Source: Lampris incognitus | Taxonomy: Eukaryota > Chordata > Actinopteri > Lampriformes > Lampridae | DNA: 64,000 nucleotides | Assembly (NCBI RefSeq): GCF_029633865.1 | Contig: NC_079216.1 | Coordinates: forward strand, 21,716,519 to 21,780,518 | Reading direction: 5' to 3' | Shown here: piece after piece, positions 22,601-28,600 of the stretch | Layout of the letters: every line of letters starts with the position of its first letter | How positions within the stretch are numbered: the first letter of the stretch is position 1 | Program-made: the position numbers and the translations under genes | Notes under the pieces: generated by a model | What the model was told of the DNA's origin: nothing | Seen by the model: only the letters and a program-made list of their open reading frames with translations | Databases searched by the model: none

Positions 22601-25600
22601 ATTCAAAGCGTGCCGTGTTATCTGGGGAATGCACAGGACACTGCGGTAAAAGAAGCTCCACATCGTTTTACTGGAGCCACCTTGTGACAGTACTTGCTTT
22701 ATGGCAGGGATAGGCAACATGGTCCAGAAAGGTCCGGTGTGGGTGCAGGTCTTTGTTCCAACCAAGGAGTTACACACCCGAGTCTACCAATCAAGGTCCT
22801 TAGCAAAGACTATTGGTTGAGTAATAGAATCAGGTGTGTAACTGCTTGGTTGGAACAAGACTATTGGTTGATCTATAGATTCAGGTGTGTAACTGCTTAG
22901 TTGGAACAAAGACCTGCACCCACACCGGACCTTTCTGGACCATGTTGCCTATCCCTGCTTTATGGCATGGCAGATTAATCTGCTGGTAGCATCTAGTTTG
23001 TATGGCCATGAAGGGAAGCATCCAGCCTAGTGTGATGGTATGAAATGGCATTCAAATTATTTTCTATTGGTAGCTGGAGCCTAAAGAGTGGCAAGAAAAC
23101 ATTATCAACACCCAAAATACAGCAGCCTGTCACTGACTAGCCGAGCTAGGTATACAATTCATGCTGCTTGTGCTCAATTCTGACCTTTCCAGCATGTCTC
23201 AACAAAAACCAGTATTCATCAGATTTTTGCATTCTTCAATTGTCCAGGTTTATGGAACATGCAGCCACTATAGTATAGCTGTGTTCAGGTAACAGGAATG
23301 GAAGTTAGCGTGCCCTCTCACAGCTGTGGTTCAGGAACAGTACCTGAACCTGTGTCTGAAAGCTGTACGTCTGCCCGTGTCAACCAAGAGATGTGCCTAA
23401 TGGAGTCACCACTGAGTGCATGTGCAGATGTTTGCATGATATGGACAGAGTTGTAAGTGGACAAGCCCATCTCACCCCCAACATCAACAAACACTCATCC
23501 GCCGAAAGCTAAGTGGATTTAGCCTGTGTACAGGCCAGGAGGACAATAATCAAATAATACATATCAGCAATTATGGACTAAATTTAGACAGACCATTTTG
23601 TTTTGGTGTAAAAAAAAAATTTTTTTGGATTTAGATTATTACGATTACCATTTAAGACAAAATAAATTACAGCTGCTTTACAGCCAAGATGGCGCCAAAG
23701 ACAGACTCACACCAAATTGTGTGTGTTGATAAAACTGACCTCCTTTTAACTTAACACAAGTAAATCCAGTTAATGCCCTTTAATAAACCTTAGCAAAAAT
23801 GTTATGTTAGTTTAGCCCCGAGTGTAACTTAATACCAACTAAACAACAGCCAACATGTTAGGAGCTGATGTTGATGTGACAGAGTAGAACAGAGGTTCTC
23901 ACACTTTTCTAGCTCATGGACTCCCAAATACAGACTAATCACACAACTCACTGCACTATCTGATAGACTTTTTTGGCCAAAAAGACTCCCACAGGGAATA
24001 TTTGTTTCAAAAATGATTTAGTATTTTAAATGTACAGCTGTCTGTACTGCACACAGACAGTAAAATACATAAACTCTTTCATTTTAATTCATATATATGT
24101 TTGTGTGTGTGTGTGGGGGGGTAATTTCAGGTGAATTAAATCTATGTTCAAATTAAACTGATCTTCATTTTGCTGGGGAGTCCAAACTGCAGTGGGAACC
24201 GCTGCTCTACAGACAAGCTGCACTGTTCCACAGCACAGACAAGCTGCAGTGTTCCACAGTACAGACACAAGCTGCAGTGTTCCACATTACAGACAAGCTG
24301 CAGTGTTCCACAGTACAGACACAAGCTGCAGTGTTCCACAGTACAGACACAAGCTGCAGTGTTCCACAGTACAGATGAAGAAGAGTCTGAGTAAACATAA
24401 TATGCAATTCTTCTCAGTTGCATTTGAGTAACATTAAAAGTAGGGTTTTCAAGAAGAACTTGAAATGTGTGATTTCAGCAATTTTCAACAGACCGTATTT
24501 CATAATAGGCCTGCAGTTCTGATCGTTTGCATGAAATACTGGCAGGGTGGCCATCTATAGTAAAAAAAAAGACAGATTGTGATGACTCAGATCCCCTCTT
24601 AGAGCGCCAGTGATTCAGAAGAGAAGACAAACATGCATAGTTGATTAAAGCAGAGATAATACTTACAGTAGGTCACATAGCCAAAAAAAAAAAAATGTAG
24701 GTTGGAATCACACCGTGAAGAACGTGAATTAACAGCTGAACCAAATTCATTTCAAACAGCAAAGTGGCGTTGGAAAATTTGGCTTATTTATAATGTTATA
24801 CAGTGAAGCATTTTGCTGTTAAATATTGCCACCGTTTGAAAGGTCTCTGGCTTGGAAACAACTTGTGGTGAAACAGTTCAACACTTCGATTCCGATCACT
24901 TTTTCAAGCACATGGTTATGTTCAGTGGGACATAACGGTTGAGCCAGTTTAGGTGTGGCTATGTCCTGCAGCTCAATGGTCTCAGTGAAGTCCTGCTGAA
25001 CAGAACCGCTGGAGTTGGTGAAATATTTTAAGCCCCCATGGTGCCTTTGGAGTTTCAGTGATTGCATGAGGATGATAATGGGTATTAGGTTTATGACATG
25101 GCTTGTGCGAATATTTTTGAATTCAAGAAAAAAAAACTGACATAAGCATTAAACTTTCACAAGTACCAATTTATAAAATCTTTTGCAATGCCAAAAACTA
25201 TAGACAAGCTCAAATCATGCCTGTATAGAAACCGACACTAAAGAGTCCAATGCCAGCCAGTGCCATAATGTGGAGCAAAAATAGCAAACCGTTGTTGTTT
25301 TTTTCTGCTCCTTACCATTTATAGCCTCTACATGACACACAACAGTTGACAAAAAAAGAAAAAAAAGAAAAAATAAAGCACTCCTTAAAGGGGACGGTAG
25401 TGCAGAATGGGTTTGGGGGGGGGGGGCGTGGAATAAGTGGGGGCTGATTGAAAGGGGGAGGGGGTAAGGGCAGTTACAACCTTACCGGGGCTTGCGGCCC
25501 GTCAGCCTCAGATAACCGTCATAGAGCACGGCGGGCAGCGTGTGACTGACAGTTGTCCAGTACTGATTGGTAAAGGGGTTGGAGCGCAGATTGACATTTG

Positions 25601-28600
25601 GCCTTCTGAAGGCCCGCTCTAAGGGATTGGTCTTGAAGGTCATATTTATGCAGTACTCTGCAGGAGAAAAATACAGACATCACAGGACAAGGAGGACACA
25701 GAACGAGATGGAAGAGAATGGTTTCCCCCCCCCCCCTTTTTGTTAATAGCAAAGATGCTGGCCCTTAAATGACATTGCCACTGCTAGCCTGCAGTTCGTG
25801 GCAACACATGATAAGAGTTAAGGATTTTAAATCTGAAAGAATCTGGATTGTATGCAACGTCTGCTGCTTCACATTACCTCATCACAGCGAAAGGAGAATG
25901 TCCAAAACTCCTTTGTTCCTATAGCTGATAGTGAATCTCAGCGACTAGCAGTGACTGTTTTCTCATAAGGGCCAACAGGGCTGAGTTCCCAAAAGCACAA
26001 GGTCCATCTTTGTCCAGTATTCACAATGAAACAAGATAATCCACGTGCTTTTATTTTGGATATCCAACCCAGAACACTGATACTGCGATAGGAAGACTTA
26101 AAATTGCAGAACCCATTAGTTTGCGTGTGCAGAAAGACAGTTGGGTTATACATTCTTAAGCTCCCAAAACAACGGCACACAAGCGTCACAGTACGTCACA
26201 TAAGCGTCACAGCTAGGATGTTAGGCTACTGCACCGACACGAAGCGCCACAGAGGTAAAGCAGTAGGAGTGTGTGGGTGCGTCGCATTAGAAGAGATACG
26301 GTGCGTTCGAGTCGGTGATGATGTTACCTGGGCTCTCGTCCAGTCAGCCTGAGGTACAGATCATAGAGGAAGGCCGGAGCCTTGTGGCTCACAGCAATCC
26401 AGTATTGATTGATTAGATGATTGGTTGTGAGATTAACATTGGGCCGACGGAAGGCCTGCTCGAGGGGGTTCCTCTTGAATGTGGATATTACATGGTATTC
26501 TAAGAGACAAAAGGTGTTCAACATGACTCATCAATATCAGTCTTAAGAATTCAGTTAAGAGTTTGAAACCAATCCCTGACTCAAAGAAACGTTTGACCCC
26601 AGCTCAAAGCACTTCTCCAAAATTGACCATTTACGACATGCAACTCATCACAGAATCAGAGCAAATTAATGTACAACATTGGTATGCATGCCTTCATGAA
26701 CTCACAAACTTCAACTTGATAGTTAATGACACCAGTATGACGTCAAAACATTTTGTTATGTTTTGATTATTCTATATGAAATCAAGTTGGCAAGGCTCCA
26801 AGTTGCATGGAAGCTCCTAAAATATACGTAGGAGCACAGACCAAACCTTCCCTGAAATGTTTGTAATTGAATCAGTTGGAAGCCCCAGACAATTCGCCTT
26901 TAGGACATTCTCCACAGCCCTTGTGACTCTAAAGAGTGACTAGGTGCTGACATTTAAATTCTCGTCAACCCTGTTACCTATTCCAACATGCTCAGGAAGT
27001 TCAATTACAGGTAAGCGCATTTCAGATAGAAAAGCCATGAAAATAGACATGAATTATTCAATAGCATTTGCAGTAGTCAGTAAAAGCCAATTTGCTACAT
27101 TAATGGGTTCAACTAAATTTAGACTACTTAGTTCTTATTAATCATCCATGTCTGCTTTATTAAGGTACTATGGGTTATGAGGGTAGCGGCGTCGGTAATT
27201 TAACTTCTCTGGCGATAAGGTTTATACAAAAAATATTATACTGCAACACATGCATTCAAACAGCATGCTAGCCACCCCATTTCCACTGAGGGCAGCAATA
27301 GTTATTTCTCATTAGATCTGTTATTTAAGCATTTCTGCCCTTTTAACATTTGAAACAACCAACAATGGAGCCACTAATAAATTCAAAATGTGTTCAACTT
27401 CAAGGAAGTTTTTTTTAGTAACAGTAACCAGATATAATAACTTTATTTAAAGTTATTATTATGTCTGTAAGCTTTATTTATAACTTTCCATCTATATTCC
27501 AGGTCCCCATGTCCCATGCAGAATAACTACTATCATGAGGAAATCCAATACAATTCATCAGTGCCTGCTTCATGTACCAACAGCATACACCTTCAGTTAT
27601 GAAGGCTCTTAACACTATAACGAACGGGATTTCACTCATACCTAAAACGACCATGGGCGGTCAAAATAACCACCGGTTTTTAAACTCTATATTCTGTCAA
27701 GGTAAATACCCAGTGGAGATATTAATGTATTGCATATGTTAGTATGTTTGTTGAGAAACGACTGACACCAATATTTACATTTTAACAACTATAATACTAT
27801 TTTTAAACAATTTAAAATGGTCGCTGTCGAACGCCTGAGTAACCGAGATATTTTCTCCTTTTTACTTTTTTTCTTCTTTCTTTTCATCGCTAACCACTCG
27901 ACCAAAGGAGGCCGACCCCTGGCGATCGGCCAGTGAGTCTTTTTGAAGGTTACAGTAGTCACCTTCTCCCGGAAGCGCACCCTCAAGCTTCGTTATTCCC
28001 GCGCTCCGAAGAGACTTCTGAGGATCTACACGCTTCCGGACACTTTCGGATCCCACTGCTGCCACCAATATTGCCGAGCATATTTCCACCCGCTGCGGGA
28101 TTCGACCTGAGGTGTACTGCACCACAAGGCGAGATCGCTAACCGCTCGACAGTGAGTCTTTTGTATGTTACAGCCTGTAAATACTGCAACGTGTTGGTGG
28201 TAGTCATGATGCGTCTGTAACGGCGTCTGTAACCAGGCATGTTGGCAATAATCAAAAATCAAGTTTAGACTATTTCTCTGCACTGGAGAATGCTAAAAAA
28301 AAATTTCTGGGACAGCGCAATGAACTTCACAAAGGAAATGATGCGACCAAAACACGTCATAAATAGTGACATGATGCGCACGATTATGCGCAAATTACGA
28401 GACGGTCATTTTGACCGGTCATGGTCGTTTTAGGTAGAACTTAGAACTGTTTTTGGTGCAATTTATCTAAATCTCATTTTAATGTAAATATATGCAATTT
28501 TAGGAGCATTCAGGGAGCGGCAGGTCTGTGTCCCCCCCACAGTTATTAAACTTTGAAAATTCAAAATGGTCAAAATGACTGGCTTGGTCGTTGTAGCGTT

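Follow-up and report, generated by a model that had tools for sequence, protein, structure and literature searches.

Tandemly duplicated coding exon 9 of far1 in Lampris incognitus and its probable mutually exclusive splicing

In far1 of Lampris incognitus, coding exon 9 lies in two tandem copies, 9a and 9b, which very probably stem from an old duplication and would be spliced in a mutually exclusive manner. The predicted product, fatty acyl-CoA reductase 1, would be a tail-anchored peroxisomal enzyme of ether-lipid synthesis. Under the proposed mechanism, the spliceosome would follow exon 8 with one of the two copies and then with exon 10, and this choice is probably made by splicing factors that act on the adjoining introns. 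The two isoforms should both be active reductases, differing at the place where the Rossmann domain meets the C-terminal FAR_C domain. The exon pair is already known, not new: a preliminary description of this DNA suspected as much, and a human pair 9a/9b (PMC5740500) and a matching chicken variant (PMC3265415) are indeed in print. The far1 exon pair is thus ordinary, well-anchored biology.

The analysed stretch of DNA (64,000 nucleotides of contig NC_079216.1), called the window below, contains on its minus strand a full-length far1 coding sequence, with ATG at 49730 and the stop codon ending at 19459 according to the exon model and its translation (Table 1). The gene was located by tblastn with a provisional sequence of human FAR1 as query, and exon edges were then set by splice signals and phase; every modelled intron has GT-AG boundaries. 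Exon numbers count coding exons, as in the paper of Hatje and colleagues on the human gene; if a non-coding first exon is assumed, the pair becomes 10a/10b. The gene is taken as far1 from comparison with human FAR1 alone: the tblastn pieces agree with the provisional human sequence at 48 to 90% of residues, the two lowest values belonging to pieces that extend into intron, and the C-terminal piece matches it at 49 of 55 residues (89%). Coding exon 7 (30025-30152) ends with a segment encoding SGSQKHN, three residues longer than SGVN of the provisional human FAR1 sequence; the donor behind it, GTTGGC, is unusual, and the intron measures 130 nt. An Rfam scan of 19000-50000 and a tRNA scan of the whole window returned no match.

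Translation of the model gives an intact protein of 517 residues with either 9a alone or 9b alone, with identical tails. In both isoforms, Pfam detects NAD_binding_4 at residues 14-284 (E-value about 8e-84), followed by Sterile (FAR_C) at 359-450, both above the curated cut-offs. E-values of the Sterile match are 8.5e-35 with 9a and 9.4e-36 with 9b. Open frames of the single exons match Sterile weakly and below cut-off (0.016 for 9b and 0.16 for 9a).

Table 1. Positions in the window of far1 and of features around the exon 9 pair
Feature	Position	Strand	Basis
far1 coding region from ATG to TAG (12 coding exons in each isoform)	19459..49730	-	exon model, translation, Pfam
far1 coding exon 8, with the donor for 9a/9b	29827..29894	-	splice sites and phase
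far1 coding exon 9a, 172 nt	26328..26499	-	open frame, GT-AG, phases, intact 517-residue product; 51/58 residues as in the provisional human FAR1 sequence
intron separating 9a and 9b, 670 nt	25658..26327	-	not U12 type by donor pattern
G12 tract (sense strand), ends 67 nt before exon 9b	25725..25736	-	run list; role speculative
far1 coding exon 9b, 172 nt	25486..25657	-	equals 9a in length and phases and shares 40/58 residues with it; uninterrupted 517-residue product
C12 tract (sense strand), starts 59 nt after exon 9b	25415..25426	-	run list; role speculative
far1 coding exon 10, with the acceptor for 9a/9b	21615..21744	-	splice sites and phase

Mobile elements were also noted in the window. 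A Tc1/mariner-like element occupies 30701-32351, within the far1 intron that separates coding exons 6 and 7. Its inverted ends are about 225 nt long and 95% identical, and its plus-strand ORF (31065-32126, 353 residues) matches the Sleeping Beauty HTH, Tc3-type HTH and DDE_3 families of Pfam. Judged by the usual catalytic motif, the third catalytic position carries Ala in place of Glu, and the element is therefore probably inactive. Outside the far1 coding region, an open frame of 367 residues on the minus strand (13183-14283) matches RVT_1 (E 1e-19) and is a fragment of a retroelement.

The duplicated far1 exon announced by the preliminary description is confirmed. Its two exons of 172 nt, lying 670 nt apart, have coordinates exact to the base, and the open frames, good acceptor and donor sequences and identical phase attributed to both were all found in the gene model. 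Each copy begins at the second base of a codon and ends at the second base of a later one. Acceptors of both copies (...gtctcttag for 9a, ...tctcctgcag for 9b) are pyrimidine-rich, judged from sequence only, and the donors, CAG|gtaaca (9a) and CCG|gtaagg (9b), each fit seven of nine positions of the donor consensus.

Since 172 is not divisible by three, inclusion or skipping of both copies shifts the reading frame. When 9a and 9b are joined, a stop codon arises inside 9b, 291 nt before the last exon junction; when neither is present, translation ends soon after the start of exon 10, at a stop 253 nt before that junction. The earlier statement that both events break the frame thus holds, and a usable mRNA needs exactly one of the two exons. 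Premature stops lying more than 50-55 nt upstream of the last junction generally mark a message for nonsense-mediated decay. By this rule, products of double inclusion and of skipping are expected targets, and the decay pathway should clear them. Exclusivity is in this way enforced by the frame at the level of the usable message. Two other enforcers were considered, on intron length and donor pattern only: with 670 nt between the copies and none of the 12 far1 donors fitting the U12 pattern used, neither simple crowding nor incompatibility of U2 and U12 sites seems to be what makes the copies exclusive, though a distant branch point might play a part.

Chance likeness of 9a and 9b is excluded by their alignment scores. 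The 9a peptide finds the 9b site by tblastn with E = 2e-24, and the alignment of the two peptides scores 210, compared with 25 for the best of 100,000 shuffles. A direct count reproduced the 40 identical residues out of 58 given earlier. The two DNA sequences agree at 115 of 172 bases, distributed as 42/57 at first, 46/58 at second and 27/57 at third codon positions; of the 58 codons, 19 are unchanged, 21 carry synonymous differences and 18 encode a different residue. The NG86 method gives dN 0.24 and dS 2.67, and as dS is saturated, their ratio is qualitative only. Saturated silent change together with restrained change of the protein suggests an old duplication, both copies of which were probably kept by selection. 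Likeness of the DNA stops at the exon edges, splice signals excepted. A duplication reaching into the introns was rejected, the flanks sharing nothing significant beyond these signals; a full match of 130 nt between flanks proved to be a stretch common to two overlapping flanks and no repeat. Searches of the window by tblastn with both exon peptides and with each coding exon revealed no credible third copy or other duplicated exon (best off-site E 0.08).

These data bear on two other views of 9b. One is that 9b is a decaying duplicate which L. incognitus seldom, if ever, includes in its mRNA; in favour of this, human 9b is reported at a level eightfold below 9a (PMC5740500). Decay is nevertheless hard to reconcile with the open frame and intact splice sites of 9b, whose donor fits the consensus as well as that of 9a, with second codon positions far better conserved than third ones, and with a Sterile score that is slightly higher for the 9b isoform; we consider it highly improbable. 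Alternatively, 9b might serve mainly as a poison exon, which, when joined to 9a, would lower far1 output through frameshift and decay, the 9b protein being minor. The stop generated by double inclusion would permit this, but a pure poison exon needs no conserved frame of 58 residues, of which 40 were kept here despite saturated silent sites, and a chicken cDNA with the alternative block has been cloned and encodes an active enzyme (PMC3265415). This possibility appears extremely improbable.

Residues matching the provisional human exon number 51 of 58 in 9a and 38 of 58 in 9b. Exon 9a is thus closer to the human exon than to its neighbour 9b (40/58), which, with similar rates, would place the duplication before the split of fishes and tetrapods. 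Such an age, resting on the provisional human sequence, agrees with what is reported for human and chicken, and points to an exon 9 alternative already present in FAR1 of the common ancestor of fishes and tetrapods. An alternative retained for so long should have a function.

The exchanged block comprises 58 residues (321-378). It had been placed between the NADPH and FAR domains; this is correct for its first 38 residues (25 identical), which precede the Sterile match, while the last 20 (15 identical) lie inside it. The block is therefore more than a linker joining the two domains. Replacements from 9a to 9b include H323C, V324I, I325N, S326M, T345R, H348P, K360T, A361L, F364V and L368G, and Asp367 is kept in both. 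By an offset of two residues, Asp367 corresponds to human Asp365. The 9a peptide alone, used as query against solved structures, found no match. A fatty acyl-CoA reductase structure, PDB 7eoz_A, belongs to the same two-domain family and matches far1 residues 2-160 and 200-449; it is distant and the exon 9 block aligns with it only loosely, so that no residue-level reading of the swap can be taken from it.

It was proposed earlier that exon choice may alter substrate preference, an idea compatible with mutually exclusive splicing of an old duplicate. The 18 differences lie in or just before FAR_C, and some, F364V and L368G for example, are next to the Asp linked to disease. The Rossmann domain, where the YxxxK motif of this reductase class presumably sits, is common to both isoforms. 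Moreover, the alcohols that the two chicken forms made in yeast were very much alike (PMC3265415, legend of Figure 2); in this sole published comparison that we found, the difference was little. The claim is left unsupported, and an effect on acyl-CoA preference seems rather unlikely.

Possible regulatory signals were sought in the introns around the pair. Exon 9b is flanked by a G12 and a C12 tract (Table 1), which in the minimum-energy fold pair over their full length with the exon looped out (z -2.6, a stability that none of 100 shuffles reached); an equally long region around 9a does not stand out (z -0.8, 21 of 100 shuffles as stable). This stem comes from one genome and was chosen post hoc, and serves as a lead only. 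Such flanks surround 51 of 63,400 intervals, all of which go back to the one G12/C12 pair, as no further two of the listed runs (10 or longer) lie close enough together; the count therefore gives no independent rate. Conceivably, the stem could silence 9b by default through looping it out, and its opening, for example by proteins binding G- or C-tracts, would switch the isoform. If true, a simple homopolymer stem would govern mutually exclusive splicing; we regard this model as very unlikely.

No docker-selector pattern common to 9a and 9b was seen by eye among the 25 longest of 29 inverted-repeat pairs in 21745-29826. Eight consensus patterns of splicing regulators were searched in three introns against mononucleotide shuffles (24 tests). 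TGCATG was found three times before 9a (0.77 expected), not at all between the copies (0.18 expected) and twice after 9b (0.62 expected), and Nova-type pairs occur 17 times in the intron after 9b (8.75 expected); given 24 tests, both excesses are weak. The same intron harbours nested inverted repeats at 22695-22967, with arms of 100 nt (89% complementarity) and 42 nt (86%), perhaps a remnant of a small transposon.

Anatomy, phases, frame effects and signs of selection were computed here, exclusivity in human and the chicken variant are taken from print, and we infer the use of the pair in this species, its regulators, the decay step and the effect on the enzyme. The mutually exclusive reading put forward in the preliminary description is well supported by exon anatomy, by human 9a/9b (PMC5740500) and by the block swap in chicken (PMC3265415), and its extension to L. 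incognitus is a prediction. Among the matches listed in a literature search, in which subscription journals are thinly covered, no paper on a 9a/9b pair in fish was recognized by title or beginning of abstract. An inventory of zebrafish genes describes a different possible Far1 isoform, without membrane anchor (PMC8919083).

In human FAR1, exon 9b was described in 2017 as new and as mutually exclusive with 9a, with which it shares its tissues, and the disease change p.Asp365Gly is located in exon 9a (PMC5740500). The gene and the coding-exon number are the same as here, and the exon 9 pair is likewise called mutually exclusive; human 9b is likened to ours by its description, and the far1 pair described here is known from genomic DNA. 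In chicken, a FAR1 variant cloned in 2011 has residues 319-376 replaced, the alternative block having previously been annotated as intron (PMC3265415). With the offset of two residues, these positions equal the block 321-378 of the fish protein, 58 residues long in both species, and the two chicken clones are the two exon forms. The chicken form is termed a splicing variant, not a member of a mutually exclusive pair, and the likeness lies in position and length of the block. Judged by position, length and exchanged block, exon 9b of L. incognitus would be orthologous to the human and chicken alternative.
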